Source: a virus
Strand: one strand, 5' to 3'
Virus record (IMG/VR): IMGVR_UViG_3300020213_000030
Coordinates: 1 to 64,000 of that record
DNA: 64,000 nucleotides
The notes beneath the pieces were generated by a model. That model was not told the DNA's origin. It did not search any database and saw nothing but the letters and a program-made list of their open reading frames with translations. Made by a program: the position numbers and the translations under genes. Each line of letters opens with the position of its first letter. The first letter of the stretch is position 1. Below are positions 3,188 to 34,608 of this stretch, piece after piece.

Positions 3188-5347
3188 TCAGAAAGGAAGA
3201 TTGGAGTTCGTGTTCGACCGGATCAGGGTGTCCGCGTTGATCTGCTCAAGTGCCCCTTGCATCTGACCCAGGAGGGCTTCATAGAGCAGCTTCGGTCCCT
3301 CGACGTCGACATTCGGGTGGATCTTCTTGCGCTCGGCCGCGTTGAAGTATGCCTGCTGAGCGGCCTGGACCTGCTGCTGCTGCTGCTGGATCAGTGCCGC
3401 GGCGCTCGCCTTGGTGCGAATAGCCTCGAGCTGTGTGATCGAGCCCTTGAGCCGTTCCGCGGGGGTCTTGCCGTCCTTGTTGTAAAACGAGGCGACCAGG
3501 CGGGCGAACTCGCCACCGTCGACAGTTAGCTGCCCAAAAAACCAGCGTGTACCAAACATGTTGCGGTCCACGGCATTCAGCATGAAGGCTGCCGCCATGT
3601 CTGGAGCAAGGCCGTATTTGTTCTGGACCGCAGCCATTTCGCCAGCCATGGACTCTACAGAGAGACCATTGTCGAGCAGGCCATTCTCATCCACGCCGCC
3701 CATGCGCTCGACCATGTCCCGGACGATTTCTTGACGGGTCAGGTTCATATTAGGGCGCTCGACGAGTTCGGTGAGCAGCGACTGATTGCCAAACATGTTG
3801 TCCGACGTAATCGTGTCGAGGATCGTTTGACCCTTGTTCACCAGGAATGTGCCTGCGTTTAAGAAATCCTGGTTCTGCGTCGCAGTGAGATCAGCCGCGG
3901 TAGCTTTCGTGGCCACATCAAGGGCTGCCTGTACCGGGTCGTTGGACCCGCTGGAATTGCTGGAACCAGGGGTATCGAACGAAAGGGCGCTCGTATCGCC
4001 AGACTGGTAAGCCTCGATCGCCGCCTGGAGCTGGCTGTCCGGAACGCTCTTAAAGCCTTCCCATTCTTCGCGAAGCCCGGCCATCTTGCCTTCCATGGAC
4101 TTGGGGCCGGAAAGGCGCTTGTTGACCAGGTGCTGGAAGATTGCGTTCTGTGTGTCTTCGTTGAACACCGTGTCCGGCGACAGACCCATTTCCTTGGCCG
4201 CATCCTGCAGCGTGCTGTTGACGATTTGGAAGCGACCCATGGGAGTGGCAACCCTGCCGATCTGGCCCTTGACCCAGGCGCCGTATTCCCCGGAGAAGTC
4301 ATCGAGCTCGCCGATCGTCTTCGTCGAAACGTCGACGCCGGCGAATGGGCCATTGTCCAACTGTGCGTGCGAGAAGAGCGTTGAATAATTACCAGCACCT
4401 TCGGTGCGATCGACGAGACTGACCAGGCCACTGAGCCCGGGAGGGGTCGCAGAAGCTCCCGGTGTGGTGGTCCCAGCCTGACGTTCCCGAACGGTCTGGT
4501 CGAGGATGAACGCAGCTGGGGATACGTCGCCGCCAAATAGGGCCGGACCCTGAGTTTCGAGAGCGTCCAGCGCCATGGTGATGACCTCCGTGGAGAGATC
4601 AGGGTTCCCACGGATCATCCGTGCTGCATCCTGGGGACTACCTGCCACTCCGACCACCTGGTTGAGGAGCGCCTCGACCTGAAGCCGATCGTTTCTGTCA
4701 AGGTTGGCATCACCCCATTCCTGATGGAGCTTGGCCATCGCCACGCCGGCGATATTGGTGTCCATGGTTCCAGCGTTGACACCAGAAATGCCGGCGGGGG
4801 TAAAACCTGCAGCAGCGAAGATCCCCGCGCTTTCCTTGGTCAATTGTTGTGCCTGAGCCAGGGCTGCAGGAGTATCCTGCGCAGCTAGGGCATCAATCTC
4901 TGCTTGTCGTTGAACGGCAGCCGGGCGGGCCGCTTCGAAGGCCTGGGTCTGATCGTTGGTCCAGACTTGCTGGCTGTTCGCCTCGGCCTGGTTCGCATTG
5001 TTCAGCGAATAACCCTGAGTCAACGTGCTGGTCTGGGTATCTCCCAGCATGTTGCGTCGGTGGGTATCAGCCCACTGGAGATCTTCCGGGGCGATTTGAT
5101 TCCGGCTGAGGCCATCAAAGAGTGTACCACTCTTCAGGGCAGCATCGAGCTCAGCGGGATTGGTGAAAGCCGCAACGCGCGAGACGAACTCGCTCGAAGC
5201 CGCGGACTTTTGGCTGGTATTCAAGCCATCCAGTGTTTTGATGGCACTGTCAAATCCAGTGTCCAGCAGCTGGCCGGCAAGGCGCTGCGATTCCGTTACA
5301 CCGGAAAAATTGGGGGCTGCTACTTCACGCCAAGTCAGAGGAGCCAC
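3188..5347 (-). CDS. Virion protein with lysozyme-like domain (N4 gp51 position)
   Basis: 719 aa. The start is GTG at 5347 with AAGGA 8 bases upstream. Residues ~300-450 resemble the lambda-lysozyme/GH104 type of phage muralytic domain: a Glu in DRTEGAGNYSTLF (probable catalytic acid), a conserved region around GELDDFSGEYGAWVKG, and TPMGRFQIVNSTLQDAA, which matches the family's (A/T)xGRYQxxxxTL motif. The flanking regions are Ala/Gln-rich and helical, with a Gln run near residue 645. It lies immediately upstream of the vRNAP gene in the late operon, so it is probably a minor virion protein that opens the cell wall during DNA and vRNAP delivery. The domain call is from motif recognition. Confidence 0.7.
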   Translation of the reverse strand: MAPLTWREVAAPNFSGVTESQRLAGQLLDTGFDSAIKTLDGLNTSQKSAASSEFVSRVAAFTNPAELDAALKSGTLFDGLSRNQIAPEDLQWADTHRRNMLGDTQTSTLTQGYSLNNANQAEANSQQVWTNDQTQAFEAARPAAVQRQAEIDALAAQDTPAALAQAQQLTKESAGIFAAAGFTPAGISGVNAGTMDTNIAGVAMAKLHQEWGDANLDRNDRLQVEALLNQVVGVAGSPQDAARMIRGNPDLSTEVITMALDALETQGPALFGGDVSPAAFILDQTVRERQAGTTTPGASATPPGLSGLVSLVDRTEGAGNYSTLFSHAQLDNGPFAGVDVSTKTIGELDDFSGEYGAWVKGQIGRVATPMGRFQIVNSTLQDAAKEMGLSPDTVFNEDTQNAIFQHLVNKRLSGPKSMEGKMAGLREEWEGFKSVPDSQLQAAIEAYQSGDTSALSFDTPGSSNSSGSNDPVQAALDVATKATAADLTATQNQDFLNAGTFLVNKGQTILDTITSDNMFGNQSLLTELVERPNMNLTRQEIVRDMVERMGGVDENGLLDNGLSVESMAGEMAAVQNKYGLAPDMAAAFMLNAVDRNMFGTRWFFGQLTVDGGEFARLVASFYNKDGKTPAERLKGSITQLEAIRTKASAAALIQQQQQQVQAAQQAYFNAAERKKIHPNVDVEGPKLLYEALLGQMQGALEQINADTLIRSNTNSNLPF

Positions 5348-27851: not shown

Positions 27852-28115
27852 ATGCAAGACCTGACAAAACGCACCAAACACGAACACCTTAAGGCTCTCA
27901 AGCCAGGCGATACGTGGACCATCTTCCACAACGGCTCTATTACCGTTGACATCGAGGATGGCCGTGGTCCTCGCGCACCTGAAGTCGGTGAGATTATAGG
28001 TCGCTGGTATTCCATCGACGAGCCTGGCCGAAACTTCCGTATCATCGCGGTACATCCCCAAGCTATCCAGACTGTTTTTCTCGGCTTCCGAGATTTCGCC
28101 GACCCAGCTCCATAA
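27852..28115 (+). CDS. Small unknown protein
   Basis: 87 aa. The N-terminus is basic (MQDLTKRTKHEHLKALKPGDTW) and the rest is beta-rich (GSITVDIEDG, GEIIGRWYSID, NFRIIAVHP), like a small barrel. Part of the early/middle string of small genes before RNAPII. Confidence 0.6.
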   Translation: MQDLTKRTKHEHLKALKPGDTWTIFHNGSITVDIEDGRGPRAPEVGEIIGRWYSIDEPGRNFRIIAVHPQAIQTVFLGFRDFADPAP

Positions 28116-28130
28116 TTCAAGGAGAGCTAA

Positions 28131-28376
28131 ATGCTCACCTACTACGGCGTTTATCGCATCATCAAAGGCGGTGGCCGCCGTCTAGTCGCTGGCAGTGTCA
28201 CATCGGACAAGGCAGCGGCCAAAAAAATGGCTGCTGACCGAAAGGACGGCGAAAGCCGGTCTCCGATCCATCGCAACGACGTCTACTACTCCCGAATGGG
28301 GCGGTATGTCGTTCATCCCCTTCCCTCCAAGCACGTTGATCGCCTCCAGAACCAGTTTAAGAAAGAAGCTGACTGA
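28131..28376 (+). CDS. Small basic protein
   Basis: 81 aa, ATG preceded by AAGGAG. Rich in Lys/Arg. The last base of its stop codon is the first base of the next start. A nucleic-acid-binding role is possible but unsupported by motif. Confidence 0.6.
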   Translation: MLTYYGVYRIIKGGGRRLVAGSVTSDKAAAKKMAADRKDGESRSPIHRNDVYYSRMGRYVVHPLPSKHVDRLQNQFKKEAD

Positions 28377-28726
28377 TGACCAATTACCGCCAATATGTCG
28401 CTTCGCGACCACTGACTGAAGCTCTATGGTGGTTCATCGAAAACGTGTCTGATGACACACCGGAGCGCACGGAGATTTTCTTCGACCTGCGGGAACGCTG
28501 CCGTGATTCTCCGTCGGAAAGCTCGCTTGCAAGAGCCCTGAAAAGCCTGATCTCGGACATCGAGGCCATGCAGCCCCATAACGACCCAAATAACTACTGG
28601 TTTGGCCCATTCAGCGAAAGTATGCCAACTGGCTCCTACGATGAAGAAACCAATATCAAGTGGCCCAACCTCGCGATCGATCTCGAGGAGGCCAAGATAG
28701 CCCTCAAGGAGTACGAAAATGACTGA
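28376..28726 (+). CDS. Unknown acidic protein
   Basis: 116 aa. It shares a base with the previous stop and overlaps the next gene by eight bases. Helical, acidic, with NNYWFGPFSESMPTGSYDEE in the middle. No domain recognised. Confidence 0.6.
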   Translation: MTNYRQYVASRPLTEALWWFIENVSDDTPERTEIFFDLRERCRDSPSESSLARALKSLISDIEAMQPHNDPNNYWFGPFSESMPTGSYDEETNIKWPNLAIDLEEAKIALKEYEND

Positions 28727-29081
28727 GGATACTTTTCTCCAGCCAAAGCTCCTTGAGGTTCCAAGGCCTCACTGGCACAAGCAGAATCCCTGGAAAGATA
28801 AGATCCTCTACGTGCCCCTCATAGAGCTCGCCGATTGTACGTTCAAGGTGGGCCAGGATAACACTTGGACAATGATCAAGGAAGTCGCCGACTGGGTCCA
28901 ATATGGTGTTATGCTGGACGCCTACATCCTCGACTCCGTAGTGCTTACCGGTGGCGTTCGCTACGGTCCGGAAGGCCGTCATTACCTGTCACCGGGTTTC
29001 TCCCTGCCTAAGCTCATCGAGCTCAAGGCGAAATACACACCCACAAAAAAGAAAAAACCAGATCCCCGTGAGGGGAGTTAG
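28719..29081 (+). CDS. Unknown protein with basic C-terminus
   Basis: 120 aa. Mixed alpha/beta with several Trp, ending in a Lys run (TPTKKKKPDPREGS). Coupled by overlap to the preceding gene; last of a four-gene string. Function unknown. Confidence 0.6.
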   Translation: MTEDTFLQPKLLEVPRPHWHKQNPWKDKILYVPLIELADCTFKVGQDNTWTMIKEVADWVQYGVMLDAYILDSVVLTGGVRYGPEGRHYLSPGFSLPKLIELKAKYTPTKKKKPDPREGS

Positions 29082-29258
29082 GCCAGGGTCATAGTCTCCC
29101 TGGTCCGTCGTGCAGCGGGCGGTCATGACGTCATGAAACAACACCCGCCGGTTGGGGAGGCAGTAACCTCCCTGCTATCGCCAACCATGGGGGAGAGGGA
29201 ATTATCTTTTCGCCCTCTCCCTCAAAATTTCCCCAACCCAGATCCAGGAGAACCTCCA
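29082..29258 (+). other. Non-coding stretch with stacked hairpins
   Basis: It holds a perfect 14-base palindrome TCATGACGTCATGA (29123-29136), a GGGAGG/CCTCCC hairpin (29155-29172) and a 9-bp GGGAGAGGG/CCCTCTCCC stem (29191-29221), the last just before the ribosome site of the next gene. No long T run follows, so these look like leader structure or a protein site rather than simple terminators. Confidence 0.6.
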
Positions 29259-29540
29259 GTGAGCCCACTCAACGACGCCCAGACGACCATGCTGAAGAGC
29301 TATGGCGCGGGCGACTACGCCTGGATCGCCGAGGACTTCTCCGAGGAGCACACCCTCGCCCTCGATGCCGTCGAGCGCCAAGGTGATACCTTGCTGCTGT
29401 TCCTCTTCCGAGAGCTTAGCGACAGGGAAGGCTGCCAAGACATGAATACGGCCATAACCCAGGTGCTGATCGCAATTGACGACCTCGAGGGCGTGCTGCA
29501 AGAGCTGGAGAAGGAGGAGGGATGCACCCAGTACTCCTGA
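29259..29540 (+). CDS. Unknown acidic protein upstream of RNAPII
   Basis: 93 aa. GTG at 29259 is chosen because AGGAG lies eight bases upstream; a longer frame from 29133 would read through the hairpins. Strongly acidic and helical (SEEHTLALDAVE...LEGVLQELEKEEG). No domain recognised. Confidence 0.55.
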   Translation: MSPLNDAQTTMLKSYGAGDYAWIAEDFSEEHTLALDAVERQGDTLLLFLFRELSDREGCQDMNTAITQVLIAIDDLEGVLQELEKEEGCTQYS

Positions 29541-29589
29541 CCATCTTCCACATCCTTGGGGCCATCCTGGTCCTTATCAAAGAACTGCA

Positions 29590-29616
29590 GTCGCCGAGAG
29601 ATCGGCGACTTTTTTC
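29590..29616 (+). terminator. Rho-independent terminator before RNAPII
   Basis: Perfect 8-bp stem GTCGCCGA/TCGGCGAC with a GAGA tetraloop and seven Ts. It separates the small early genes from the RNAPII small-subunit gene, which must then have its own promoter in 29617-29752 or depend on read-through. Confidence 0.93.
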
Positions 29617-29752
29617 CTATCTCCCACTGCCCGCAGATCCCTCGCCGCCACCGCAACCTCGATCAGTCCCGCGGATGAAGATCAGCGGACGACCAATCAA
29701 GCTCGTCTTCACCCCAATTACCTTATTGGGCACCCCAACGAAGGAGAAACCC

Positions 29753-30562
29753 ATGATCGAGTTCCAGATCGAAATTGAGAAGCTGTTTCACAAAAACCAG
29801 CTCTTCCCCAGAATTAAGGGTGAATTCGTTAACTGCGATGGCCTCGACTTTGAGGTACTGATGAAAAAATATGACATCGAGGTAAACTTCGGCTTCGATC
29901 TCCTGGTTCAGATGGTCCTTCATAAGCGAGCCACCTTGCCGGCCCTGGTTGGCTCCCTGCGCAAACACTTCGACGGTGACTGCCAGACAACCACCGACGA
30001 GCTCACCAAGGCAATAGGGGCCGATCTCGTCAACTGGTCACCCGTCACGAGGCAATTCATCGTCAAGTTTGGCATCTCGGACGACGTGCAGCAGGATCTG
30101 GATCGTTACCAATATCCTCTCCCGATGGTAGTTCCGCCCCTCCCGCTCACTGACAACAGGGACACCGGCTACTACACCAGCCAGAACTCGGTCATCCTTC
30201 GTCAGAATCACCACGACGACGACGTCTGTCTCGATCACCTGAACCAGGTGAACAAGATCAGGTTCCGGATCAACCGGGACGTGGCCAACACGATTGAAAA
30301 CCGCTGGCGTAACCTCGACAAGCCCAAGCCTGACGAGGAGATGGCTGAGTACCAGAAGCGGGTCAAGGCATTCGAGAAGTACGATCGCACCGCCCACGAT
30401 GTCATGGACCATCTGGGCATCGCCACCGAGGGAGAGTTCTACCTCACCCACAAGGTCGACAAGCGCGGCAGGACCTATTGCCAGGGCTACGTCGTCAACT
30501 ACCAGGGCACGGCCTGGAACAAGGCCGTGATACAATTCGCCAATGAAGAAGTGGCAAACTAG
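29753..30562 (+). CDS. RNA polymerase II subunit 1 (N4 gp15-like)
   Basis: 269 aa. ATG at 29753 with GGAG upstream. It corresponds to the N-terminal and early palm part of T7-type polymerase: YPLPMVVPPLPLTDNRDTGYY aligns with the T7 'MVVPP' region, then a helix with INRDVANTIE, and near residue 235 VDKRGRTYCQGYVVNYQG, equivalent to T7 DWRGRVY with catalytic Asp537. It stops soon after, where the T7 chain would run on. The missing palm and fingers are in the gene at 31226. It is compact, lacking much of the T7 N-terminal domain, as expected for N4 RNAPII, which needs helper proteins for promoter opening. Confidence 0.9.
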   Translation: MIEFQIEIEKLFHKNQLFPRIKGEFVNCDGLDFEVLMKKYDIEVNFGFDLLVQMVLHKRATLPALVGSLRKHFDGDCQTTTDELTKAIGADLVNWSPVTRQFIVKFGISDDVQQDLDRYQYPLPMVVPPLPLTDNRDTGYYTSQNSVILRQNHHDDDVCLDHLNQVNKIRFRINRDVANTIENRWRNLDKPKPDEEMAEYQKRVKAFEKYDRTAHDVMDHLGIATEGEFYLTHKVDKRGRTYCQGYVVNYQGTAWNKAVIQFANEEVAN

Positions 30563-30582
30563 TTAATGCCGAGAGGAACAAC

Positions 30583-30696
30583 GTGAACGGAAATTACGAA
30601 CCCAGCAATTGCCGGTGGGCCACTCGAAAAGAGCAGGCCAACAATCGCCGTCCCCAACAATCCCACAAATTCGCCAACCAGGATATGACCCAATGA
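30583..30696 (+). pseudogene. HNH homing-endonuclease remnant between the RNAPII subunit genes
   Basis: 37 codons from a GTG at 30583. The frame is open back to ~30547, into the end of the RNAPII gene. NGNYEPSNCRWATRKEQ, followed by ANNRR, is the characteristic C-terminal block of phage/intron HNH endonucleases; the catalytic HNH core upstream is absent. Its stop overlaps the next start (ATGA). It lies right at the junction where the polymerase gene is split, suggesting a past homing insertion. Whether it is still translated is unclear. Confidence 0.75.
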
Positions 30697-30902
30697 CCAA
30701 ACTACTAGGTTACCAGCTCACCAACCTCAAGGGGGAAAACATCCAGGGAAAAAACGAAGATCCGACAAATATGGCCTCGTTCGAGATCATGGCTCCAGTC
30801 TTCGCTTCTTATGTCATGCGTCTAATGGCAAGCCGAAAATTCCTGCTGATGCCGATCTACGAGGGCGACATCGAAGATCCCAAAATCATCGAGGGCATCT
30901 GA
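30693..30902 (+). CDS. Small unknown protein between the RNAPII subunits
   Basis: 69 aa from ATG at 30693, overlapping the HNH remnant stop. A helix-rich middle (FEIMAPVFASYVMRLMASRKF) and an acidic end. No domain recognised. Confidence 0.5.
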   Translation: MTKLLGYQLTNLKGENIQGKNEDPTNMASFEIMAPVFASYVMRLMASRKFLLMPIYEGDIEDPKIIEGI

Positions 30903-30974
30903 AAGAAAATTCTCTGGCCATCTCCTAGATAATCACCTACGATTATCTCGTCTCAAATTACGGAGATAACGTGC

Positions 30975-31064
30975 ATGAAGTCCTGGTTCGCCTTTGATTC
31001 GTCCGCCATCACCACCTCCACCTGTCGAAAACGGATCAGACTTCCTCCTTCAGCCATTCCCTAG
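30975..31064 (+). CDS. Possible tiny peptide gene
   Basis: 29 aa (MKSWFAFDSSAITTSTCRKR...). ATG at 30975 with GGAG nine bases upstream, inside a variant of the palindromic element (AATTACGGAGATAAC). It lies in an otherwise gene-free 323-base stretch (30903-31225) that also has GATAATC at 30928, GATTATC at 30941 and a terminator. Support is only the ribosome site. Confidence 0.3.
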   Translation: MKSWFAFDSSAITTSTCRKRIRLPPSAIP

Positions 31065-31099
31065 AGGCTGCTGACCTCACGTAGGCCAAACCCATCTCG

Positions 31100-31130
31100 A
31101 AGAGCTCCTCTACAAAGAGGAGCTCTTTTC
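31100..31130 (+). terminator. Rho-independent terminator between the RNAPII subunit genes
   Basis: 12-bp perfect stem (AAGAGCTCCTCT/AGAGGAGCTCTT, ACAA loop) continuing into TTTTC. It implies that the two polymerase subunits are not simply co-transcribed, or that subunit 2 relies on partial read-through. Confidence 0.85.
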
Positions 31131-31225
31131 ACATTTGGAGTATGACCATGGTTGACCTGGGCATGGAACTCTCTTGAGCTCTTCTCTACATCTACTGAAC
31201 CTCACCCAACCACTGGAGCTACCAC

Positions 31226-32431
31226 ATGACCTTCCAGACTTTCTCGGGCAAGGAATATCTCAAAATCGACATCGCCAGCTCCTTCGGTCTCGACAAGCTG
31301 ACCTGGGATGCTCGTATCGCCTGGTTCAACACTAACGAGCAGAAATTGCCCGAACTGTTGAAACAGGCTGATGAACCAGCTCTTTTCTATGCTGGTATCC
31401 AAGCCTGGGAAAAAACCAAGGCCAACAAGCCTTCGGGCTATCCGATCTCGCTCGATGCTACCTGCTCGGGGATCCAGATCCTCGCAGCACTGGCCGGCGA
31501 TCGCAAGGCAGCCCAGATCTGCAACGTCGTCGACACCGGCAAGCGTGAAGACGCCTACGTGTCCATTTACCAGGACATGGTCGCCAAGTTGGGCGAGACG
31601 TCCAGAATCGACCGCAAGCTCACCAAACAGGCGATCATGACGTCGTTCTACAGCTCGACTGCGGTGCCCAAGCGGGTCTTCGGTGATGGCGAACTGCTCG
31701 CTATCTTCTATGACACCCTCAAGGCCAACGCTCCGGGTGCCTGGGAAATAAACGAGACCATGCTGGCGATCTGGGATCCCACGACTCTCGAGAACACCTG
31801 GATCCTTCCCGACAACTTCCATGTCAAGGTCAAGGTCATGGGCCAGGTCACTGAAACAGTTCATTTCTTCAACGAGCCGTTCGACGTGCAATACTACCAG
31901 AACATGCCCATCAAGGGTGGTCGATCGCTGGGTGCCAACATGGTTCACTCGATCGACGGCATGGTGGTGCGTGAGATGCAGCGCCGCTGCAACTATGACC
32001 CGATCAAGATCGCCGAGCTCAAGCGTCTGCTCGCTGTCGGCGCCGGTGGGCACAGCACCCGCCGGGATGAGGACAAACTGGTAACGTGCCTCTGGGCACA
32101 CTATCTCGACTCGGGATTTCTCTCGGCCCGGATCCTGAGTTACCTCGACATAGACAACCTTGGTCTGGTCGATGCGAAGGTGATCCAGGGATTGCTCAAC
32201 AGCCTGCCGGAAAAACCCTTCGAGATGATCTCGATTCACGACTGCTTCCGTTGCCTGCCCAACTATGGCAACGACATTCGCCGGCAGTACAATCTGCTGC
32301 TGGCCACCATCGCGGAGTCGGAGCTGTTCAGCTACGTTGTCTCCCAGATCTGCCACCGGTACATTCAGGCCGGAAAACTCGACCCCAAGCTGGGCCGGGA
32401 CATTCGCGAAGCGAATTACGCTCTTTCCTAA
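31226..32431 (+). CDS. RNA polymerase II subunit 2 (N4 gp16-like)
   Basis: 401 aa. ATG at 31226 with GGAG upstream. It carries the rest of the T7-type catalytic core: SLDATCSGIQILAALAGD (~75-92; T7 DGSCSGIQ), RKLTKQAIMTSFY (~130-142), matching T7 R627, K631 and Y639, NMVHSIDGMVVRE, and ISIHDCFRCLP (~340) with the second catalytic Asp (T7 D812). Together with the 269-aa subunit this makes a complete polymerase active site across two chains, as in N4 RNAPII, which transcribes middle genes. It has its own ribosome site and is followed by a strong terminator. Confidence 0.93.
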   Translation: MTFQTFSGKEYLKIDIASSFGLDKLTWDARIAWFNTNEQKLPELLKQADEPALFYAGIQAWEKTKANKPSGYPISLDATCSGIQILAALAGDRKAAQICNVVDTGKREDAYVSIYQDMVAKLGETSRIDRKLTKQAIMTSFYSSTAVPKRVFGDGELLAIFYDTLKANAPGAWEINETMLAIWDPTTLENTWILPDNFHVKVKVMGQVTETVHFFNEPFDVQYYQNMPIKGGRSLGANMVHSIDGMVVREMQRRCNYDPIKIAELKRLLAVGAGGHSTRRDEDKLVTCLWAHYLDSGFLSARILSYLDIDNLGLVDAKVIQGLLNSLPEKPFEMISIHDCFRCLPNYGNDIRRQYNLLLATIAESELFSYVVSQICHRYIQAGKLDPKLGRDIREANYALS

Positions 32432-32454
32432 TAATTGAAAATAGATTACCCTTA

Positions 32455-32492
32455 AAACCCATCCCACCATATTGGTGGGGTGGGTTTCTTTT
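32455..32492 (+). terminator. Strong rho-independent terminator after RNAPII
   Basis: 14-bp stem (AAACCCATCCCACC with GGTGGGGTGGGTTT, one G-T pair, ATATT loop) followed by CTTTTTTC. It separates RNAPII from the tail genes. Confidence 0.93.
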
Positions 32493-32506
32493 TTCAGGAT
32501 AATCCA

Positions 32507-32821
32507 GTGATCACCAGCTCCAACCTACTGGAGGCGTTCCGCGGTAGGGACATCCAGATCGCCTTCACCTACACGCCTCCAAGCGGTGAATCCCGGGCCA
32601 CGCTGACACTCACCGCGGCTCTGGAAGGTGATAACCTCGAAACTTCGGTTCCTGTCAGCACGCTGACTTTTAACACCTCGACCGGGGCGGTGCTCGCAAC
32701 CTGGAGCGAGATAACCACATCCCCTCTGCTCAGTAAACGGACCTATGAGGCCCGGTTTACCCGTACCGACGCCGCTGGCAACTCCCGGGTGTTTTACATC
32801 CGACCTGTAAAGATGCGCTGA
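32507..32821 (+). CDS. Small tail-region protein
   Basis: 104 aa. GTG at 32507 with AGGA upstream, within CAGGATAATCCA (a half copy of the dispersed motif). Beta-rich, Thr-rich sequence (DIQIAFTYTPPSGESRATLTLTAALEG...) resembling an Ig-like or fibre accessory domain. Its last base overlaps the next start, so it is coupled to the fibre gene. The role is inferred from context. Confidence 0.6.
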   Translation: MITSSNLLEAFRGRDIQIAFTYTPPSGESRATLTLTAALEGDNLETSVPVSTLTFNTSTGAVLATWSEITTSPLLSKRTYEARFTRTDAAGNSRVFYIRPVKMR

Positions 32822-34608
32822 TGGCTGTCGAAACGGTCATCGAGACCGTCATTACGGCTGAAATCGTCCTTGAAGCCGGCTCGGCGGAGACAGTCGTTGA
32901 ACCAGTGGTTCAAGGCGAGATCACAGTCGAAGCCGGTGGTGACGAGACTGTTGTCGAGACTGTCACCCAGACCGAGCTCGTCACTCAAAATGTGACGGAG
33001 ATGGTCATTGAGACCATCGCTCTGCCCGAATTGATAACCGAGAACCTGGGTCCACCCGGGCTAACCGGCCCAGTTAGCGAGTTGACGCAACAGGTCATTG
33101 AGCGATTTGACCAGGTACAGGGCGTCTTGTTCGGCGGCCAGGGGGGTTCTCTGTCGGCGATCGTTGCCGCGATTGACACACGTCTCAAAAATCTCGCCGT
33201 GTCTCTCGCCGGCGATCAAACCGTGGGCCACACCATCCGCACTGAATTGCGGGCAGATATTGAGACCAATCACGCGCTTTTCATCACACAGACCGACGTC
33301 TTCGTTACGGATCTGGAAGCCCTCTCGACCACAACGACGCTGCATGCGGTAGAAATCGGTAACAACGCTGCCGCAATCATCCAAGAGGCTACCACCAGGG
33401 CCACTAGTGATACTGCCAGCGCGACCCTGATCAGCGAAGTAGCCGTACAGGCCGGCGAGGCAACCGCGTCCGGCCTTTGGAAGCTCGAAGCCATTGCTGC
33501 CCCAATTGGCGTGACCGTGCGTCTGGCCGCACTCGCACGAGTGAACAACGCTGGTGTTTACGTCCAGTCTGGGCTCTTGATCGACATCATCCCGATCGGT
33601 GGAGGTCTGTACAAAAGCCGCATCGCAATGCTGGCCGACCAGATCGTCCTCACCAACGGCACGGAAGTCAACATACCCTTCGTTTATGAAGGTGGTGTCC
33701 TTTATCTTGATACCGCGGTAATCCGCAACCTCTCAGGCAACCAGATCCTGGCAGACACGATTGAAGCCAGGCATCTCTCCATCGGGTCGCGAATGATCTC
33801 ACTCATAAGCATCGTGTTTGAGCACAATGACCCGATCCTTAATCGAGTTAGTTGGACCGCCGGCAGCGTACGTTACACAAACGATGCCGGCGTAGTAACC
33901 GCCAGCACAATCACGGCGAGCGAGACCGCAACCTGGACAACCGGCGTTATATATATCTACTGGATCAAGGACGCCACTTCGTTTGGAAACACAACCGATG
34001 TCACGACGGCCTACGGCGAAGATCGTGTAGTAATCGCAACCTATGCTGGTAACCGTAACTTTATACTTAACTACGGCCGGACGATTATCGACGGATTTGG
34101 TATCAAGACCGGCACGGTCACCGCCGACAAGATTAACGTCGTAAATCTTGAAGCCATCAGTGCCACCCTAGGCAACGTGATTGTCACCGGCTCTCTAATA
34201 GTTGACGGCACGATCATCACCGGTAAGCTTGACGATAACGCAGTCTCGATCGTCGGCTTCTGGACTGGCAGCAACACAGCTGTGACAGGCGATCTCAGTT
34301 ATACCGAAGTGGTCAGTGGAGCGATCACAACCGACTCCGGAGATCTGCTGATCACCGTTGGTGGGACAATGTCCAAAGGTGGCGATTCTGTCACGTCAGT
34401 TTCTACTCGAATCAAAGTCGATGGCACCGTCATCGGCACTTACGTGACAAATGCGAGCCCACAGAATGGTAGCATGGCAGCGGCCCGAAGGGTGGCTGGA
34501 GGTACCGGGTCGCGCACCATCTCGGTTGAGGTTGGTAACTGTAATTCGACTGCCAATGTGCCAACTGCGACGAATGTGACCTTGCGCGTGGAGAATCTCA
34601 AGAAATGA
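32821..34608 (+). CDS. Tail fibre protein
   Basis: 595 aa. Residues 1-85 are an acidic repeat of ETV/ITE-type units ending in a short collagen-like GPPGLTGP. A helical coiled-coil shaft (~90-220) follows. From ~290 there is a beta-rich part with DTIEARHLSIGSRM, VRYTNDAGVV, YIYWIKDATSF and GIKTGTVTADKINVVNLEAIS, a pattern typical of C-terminal regions of phage tail-tip and fibre proteins. The C-terminal ~100 residues form a Ser/Thr-rich beta domain, possibly receptor-binding. It is encoded with a chaperone-like gene and a tailspike. Confidence 0.75.
   Translation: MAVETVIETVITAEIVLEAGSAETVVEPVVQGEITVEAGGDETVVETVTQTELVTQNVTEMVIETIALPELITENLGPPGLTGPVSELTQQVIERFDQVQGVLFGGQGGSLSAIVAAIDTRLKNLAVSLAGDQTVGHTIRTELRADIETNHALFITQTDVFVTDLEALSTTTTLHAVEIGNNAAAIIQEATTRATSDTASATLISEVAVQAGEATASGLWKLEAIAAPIGVTVRLAALARVNNAGVYVQSGLLIDIIPIGGGLYKSRIAMLADQIVLTNGTEVNIPFVYEGGVLYLDTAVIRNLSGNQILADTIEARHLSIGSRMISLISIVFEHNDPILNRVSWTAGSVRYTNDAGVVTASTITASETATWTTGVIYIYWIKDATSFGNTTDVTTAYGEDRVVIATYAGNRNFILNYGRTIIDGFGIKTGTVTADKINVVNLEAISATLGNVIVTGSLIVDGTIITGKLDDNAVSIVGFWTGSNTAVTGDLSYTEVVSGAITTDSGDLLITVGGTMSKGGDSVTSVSTRIKVDGTVIGTYVTNASPQNGSMAAARRVAGGTGSRTISVEVGNCNSTANVPTATNVTLRVENLKK

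Follow-up and report, generated by a model that had tools for sequence, protein, structure and literature searches.

How did the RNA polymerase of N4-like phages come to be divided over two genes, and does an endonuclease scar between these genes in one such phage record that event? For N4, it has been called unclear where the two-subunit enzyme comes from (PMC4496689). A paper of 2017 put forward homing as the source of the N4-like split, with G7C and EE36P1, whose junction endonucleases were noted, as examples (PMC5418858). The stretch analysed here (the window, 64,000 nucleotides) comes from an N4-like phage (Schitoviridae) and is part of a 68.5-kb virus record. A sequence-only reading of it had suggested that a homing insertion created, or later reused, the split. 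Our comparison with related phages makes it highly probable that an old N4-type split received a phrog_374-type insertion late, that this insertion decayed in the window, and that similar events swapped gene ends in relatives.

An N4-type polymerase encoded by two genes

The polymerase is encoded by the following genes.

29753–30562, + strand: RNAP1 (N4 gp15-like), 269 aa; covers the N-terminal and thumb regions and DxxGR of a T7-type polymerase
31226–32431, + strand: RNAP2 (N4 gp16-like), 401 aa; covers palm and fingers and carries motifs A, B and C; no intron

Both T7-type chains named in the sequence-only reading are present, as RNAP1 is matched over its full length by phrog_2166 (E=9e-96) and RNAP2 by phrog_2051 (E=2e-152), both families of N4-like RNA polymerase. 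RNAP2 also matches the N4 RNAP2 of PDB 6dt7 (6dt7_B; E=1e-128), and RNAP1 has the same length as the RNAP1 of ort11 and X2_28B. In the alignment to T7 RNAP, the two chains are contiguous, as had been noticed, with the break between T7 residues ~453 and 454 and nothing of note missing. Residue mapping places both catalytic aspartates in RNAP2, with D77 corresponding to T7 D537 and D339 to T7 D812. The helix residues R130/K134/Y142 (T7 R627/K631/Y639) are likewise found in RNAP2, and the DxxGR motif (DKRGR) occupies residues 236–240 of RNAP1 (T7 421–425). The earlier assignment of the R/K/Y helix and the second catalytic aspartate to the 401-aa chain is therefore correct, whereas that of a catalytic aspartate to the 269-aa chain, made through DxxGR, is wrong.

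The gene layout is that of the N4-type heterodimer, in which RNAP1 (N-terminal, thumb and DxxGR) and RNAP2 (motifs A, B and C) are separate genes, and the division of motifs equals that published for N4 gp15 and gp16 (PMC4496689). N4 RNA polymerase II (PDB 6dt7, 6dt8 and 6dta) is likewise encoded by two genes, of 269 and ~404 aa, with an equal split point. In N4, the two chains form one enzyme that transcribes the middle genes (PMC4496689), and those of the window would do likewise.

A truncated HNH endonuclease lies between the two genes

The junction between RNAP1 and RNAP2 spans 664 nt in the window and contains the HNH relic together with a small ORF and a terminator-like hairpin, whereas the N4 junction measures 48 bp and holds no endonuclease. 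Its features are as follows, with L023 being a relative from the same clade.

30568–30696, + strand: 5'-truncated HNH endonuclease relic AERNNVNGNYEPSNCRWATRKEQANNRRPQQSHKFANQDMTQ, keeping between ~1/5 and 1/4 of a ~173-aa protein, at its C-terminal end
30693–30902, + strand: 69-aa ORF from the ORF list, overlapping the relic stop by ATGA
30554–30903, no strand: interval absent from L023, ~334 bp net extra in the window, containing the relic and the 69-aa ORF
30904–31140, + strand: non-polymerase element conserved in the clade of the window; in L023 it follows RNAP1 directly
31099–31128, + strand: terminator-like hairpin with a stem of 13 pairs and T's after it (dG -21.6 kcal/mol, z -5.6)
31215–31218, + strand: Shine-Dalgarno-like GGAG before RNAP2, identical CTGGAGCTACCACATG in L023

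The HNH C-terminal block reported earlier is real: it matches phrog_374 (E=5e-12 over 29 residues) and phrog_3377 (E=2e-10), far above chance, and can be aligned with the intact junction HNHs of five relatives (L028, L040, L041, L051 and HN02). It does not continue the RNAP1 frame, as had been supposed; its open frame (30547–30696, with a candidate GTG start at 30583) is frame 1, whereas RNAP1 and RNAP2 are both in frame 2. Only the last ~36–42 of ~173 codons are kept, and a complete nuclease and DNA-binding region is thus missing. Judged from its sequence, the relic can no longer cut, its 5' three quarters being gone. No second HNH copy occurs elsewhere in the 68.5-kb record.

The relic and the 69-aa ORF might instead be a retained functional unit, in which the truncated frame is translated and coupled through ATGA to the ORF. 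The frame is still open, its GTG is preceded by AGAGGA, the ATGA overlap is in place and the core motif is conserved. By comparison, most of the nuclease is missing, the arrangement occurs in one lineage only, and the 69-aa ORF has no relatives in phage records or viral contigs, and we regard such a unit as rather unlikely.

Downstream of the extra interval, the element at 30904–31140 is 69% identical to its L023 counterpart across 227 columns and aligns also with L024 and L064. L023, L024 and L064 share with the window its order of a box resembling GATAATC..ATAATC, then ~150 nt, then the terminator-like hairpin, and the element is possibly a short transcript or an attenuator. The hairpin folds also in L023, L064 and L024. 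The terminator read earlier in the junction thus stands as a strong hairpin followed by T's, but it is not among the terminators listed by a strict scan.

The split is older than the endonuclease of the window

Relatives were taken from public virus collections, in which metagenome records may be fragments, on the basis of RNAP2 similarity and were placed on a quick RNAP2 tree with long branches at its base. On this tree, the window falls into a clade of six with L064, L023, L024, L003 and L001 (support 99). These five closest relatives are split at the same point, and none carries an HNH in the junction; relatives of exactly this kind had been named in the sequence-only reading as evidence against its proposal. 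In blastn, the first match between the two runs as far as window 30553 (L023 4088), in the case of L023, and the alignment resumes at window 30904 with L023 4105, a position 8 nt beyond the RNAP1 stop of L023. On this alignment, L023 is a near-empty site for the HNH of the window. The gene may have been lost in L023 instead of gained in the window; the other four clade members are also without it.

The split point is identical in every record examined, and the split is found without HNH in N4, in RG-2014, in L096 and in the closest clade of the window, which speaks against the earlier suggestion, drawn from the scar of the window, that a homing insertion created it. We conclude that the split predates the endonuclease of the window and does not depend on it. 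RG-2014 and L096 had been candidates for an unsplit N4-like polymerase and were rejected: RG-2014 aligned in one piece, yet it has two genes 24 bp apart, and L096 has two genes that overlap by ATGA.

Most probably, the window inherited an ordinary N4-type heterodimeric RNA polymerase II, whose two genes had already been separate for a long time when this phage emerged. The relic would be what is left of a free-standing homing endonuclease gene of phrog_374 type that entered the junction beside the RNAP1 3' end, in the window lineage alone, and then lost its 5' three quarters. This loss was presumably caused by deletion or by recombination or exchange with an endonuclease-free phage.

A different arrangement would be a junction that is, or was, a self-splicing intron with an HNH gene, giving a single polymerase after splicing. 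Some relatives do carry group I introns in RNAP2, with an Rfam match above threshold in phage VL1 and weaker matches in L064 and L003. However, an Rfam scan of window positions 28000–34000 returned no intron match up to E=1, and in other members of the family the two genes lie 13–48 bp apart or overlap. In addition, RNAP1 and RNAP2 have normal ends, with their own stop codon and a conserved ribosome-binding site, and match N4 proteins over their full lengths. Splicing of RNAP1 into RNAP2 is unlikely because of these normal end and start codons, the conserved RNAP2 ribosome-binding site and the lack of an intron match, and we give the intron reading as a whole almost no credence.

The junction is a recurrent landing site of homing endonucleases

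Comparison of the gp15–gp16 junction across Schitoviridae, as the sequence-only reading had proposed, covered 89 related records, in which 1.54% of the sequence lies in junctions. At least one intact endonuclease lies in the RNAP1–RNAP2 junction of 17 of the 89 records, and three families are represented: HNH_3 (8 of 84 matches in junctions; P=5e-5), phrog_374 (6 of 13; P=2e-8) and phrog_1035 (4 of 16; P=9e-5), where the binomial P values are taken against genome length and ignore relatedness between records. Nearly all of these genes adjoin the end of RNAP1 or the start of RNAP2. The occupant of the junction changes state at least 17 times on the RNAP2 tree, including among N4 and Jura and among L077, L079 and G7C; N4 has no HNH and Jura has one, although their RNAP2 genes are ~99% identical. 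In a well-supported clade of five (L028, L041, L047, L071 and L090), three different endonuclease families are found at the RNAP1 side.

Coliphage G7C gene 15.1 (phrog_1035) and Jura_0050 (HNH_3/phrog_99) lie directly after RNAP1, in the same junction as the relic, and are intact, whereas the relic is phrog_374-type and truncated. The phrog_374 HNHs of HN02, L028 and L041 are homologous to the relic over its length and occupy the same junction, but are intact at ~173 aa. That of L028 begins 4 nt past the RNAP1 stop, L041 carries two, one at each end of the junction, and L040, L051 and HN02 carry one beside RNAP1 and/or RNAP2. The HNH of Burkholderia phage HN02 lies on the RNAP2 side, directly before RNAP2 (L010 3569–4087; PP079243.1 5238–5756), and is unannotated in GenBank. 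With profiles of the three endonuclease families run over the 89 records, the relic of the window was the only one found in a junction. The second half of the earlier suggestion, that the split was later reused, is borne out: unrelated homing endonucleases have landed in the junction repeatedly, and the window carries one relic. The junction would draw such elements probably because its two flanks, the RNAP1 3' end and the RNAP2 5' end, are conserved.

These data also bear on the reading in which a homing insertion made the ancestral split and the HNH block of the window descends from the founding element. In its favor, the split is located where homing elements keep landing, a homing origin has already been proposed (PMC5418858), and Aeh1 NrdA provides a precedent for a homing endonuclease splitting an essential gene (as cited in PMC5418858 and PMC2988022): this phage enzyme consists of two pieces, and the endonuclease lies at their junction. 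In Aeh1, however, the insertion made the split, whereas here the split exists without an endonuclease. The junction endonucleases belong to three families that are gained and lost among near-identical phages, and many junctions of 13–90 bp hold no trace of one, with one relic in 89 records. Furthermore, within its clade the HNH is confined to the window, and the tree contradicts descent from a founder. We therefore consider this reading very improbable. An ancestral homing event may still have made the split as such. Our comparison indicates that present-day junction endonucleases are late and recurrent arrivals, whose turnover is too rapid for them to be taken as relics of that event.

Related phages carry replaced and displaced RNAP1 3' ends

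Where an endonuclease abuts RNAP1, the last ~90–160 bp of RNAP1 have been replaced, as seen in six carrier phages compared with endonuclease-free relatives. The RNAP1 genes of N4 and Jura are 98.6% identical over the first 630 nt and 100% at 660–720, but 71% over the last 90 aligned columns, with 53–80% per 15 nt from 720 to the stop. For each carrier (Jura, L079, G7C, pSb-1, L095 and L091), the last 90 nt were compared with the body of the gene against one endonuclease-free relative. Identity falls by 20–31.5 points in the last 90 nt in all six, as compared with changes of -7 to +5 in 16 control pairs without an intact endonuclease, one of which is the window with L023 (Mann-Whitney P=1.3e-5, the pairs being partly related).

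In addition, the native RNAP1 3' end, down to its stop codon, is found displaced downstream of the endonuclease in L079 (71 nt at 92%), L095 (56 nt at 96%), L091 (54 nt at 87%) and OLIVR1 (L007; 33 nt at 85%), and a foreign 3' end now completes RNAP1 in these four phages. In L079, RNAP1 stops at 4264 and the displaced end lies ~518–583 nt beyond. Searches for displaced RNAP2 5' ends in the junctions gave weak reverse-strand matches only. These arrangements suggest that RNAP1-side elements land within the last 11–24 codons of RNAP1 and bring a substitute 3' end, so that the original one is left behind downstream; the steps involved would be a cut close to the end of RNAP1 and endonuclease-driven transfer. 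Co-conversion of flanks is known for phage homing endonucleases (PMC2988022), and plain co-conversion could explain the replaced RNAP1 end, but not the displaced second copy.

A close parallel is found in mobile ORFs of fungal mitochondria (Allomyces atp6; Glomus atp6, atp9, cox2 and nad3), which bring a substitute C-terminus together with an endonuclease ORF and displace the native 3' end downstream, as in L079, L095, L091 and OLIVR1 (PMC3630166). The fungal elements encode LAGLIDADG or GIY-YIG enzymes in mitochondria, whereas those of the phages encode HNH_3 enzymes. A brief literature search found no description of the displaced-end arrangement in phages.

The window itself bears no signs of a swap. 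Its RNAP1 tail was considered as a swapped end and rejected, since the identity profile against relatives is unbroken: the tail is 82% identical to L023, as compared with 76% in the body. No displaced RNAP1 3' end is found in the window. At one position of the tail the window has Gln where the rest of the clade has Glu, and most phrog_374 carriers also have Gln.

A broader model can be offered tentatively. The RNAP1 3' end may be a shared docking site at which unrelated homing endonucleases (HNH_3, the EndoVII-like phrog_1035 and perhaps phrog_374) bring a substitute C-terminus, thereby sitting in a conserved essential gene without an intron or intein; the relic of the window would then be a wreck of such an element, and the ancestral split may share the route. 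C-terminus swapping is a testable route for a free-standing endonuclease into an essential gene, and the coliphages N4 and Jura, with near-identical polymerases without and with an endonuclease, offer a ready test pair.

Interruptions of RNAP2 in related phages

In several relatives, inserts that start with AACC break up RNAP2 at motif B (codon ~137/138); their positions are as follows.

L003: 4223–5001
L010: 4506–5314
L064: 5311–5637
L090: from 4226
L100: 4195–5001

The inserts of L064 (E=1e-11) and L003 (E=3e-6) match a group I intron model, and several carry phrog_1035 endonucleases. RNAP2 of HN02 (L010) is annotated as separate ORFs. In Pseudomonas phage VL1 (L017 2994–3259), a group I intron lies at RNAP2 codon ~80 (Rfam 82.5 bits) and is associated with a GIY-YIG-like homing endonuclease. 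RNAP2 of Erwinia phage MIF8 (L105 2008–4244) seems broken at residue ~362 and resumes ~960 nt later, with an HNH-type ORF at 3365–4024 preceding the resumed part. In Vibrio phage 1.224.A (L016 3992–7014), RNAP2 precedes RNAP1, the reverse of the order in the other N4-like phages examined, and contains an HNH-bearing insert after AIMT.
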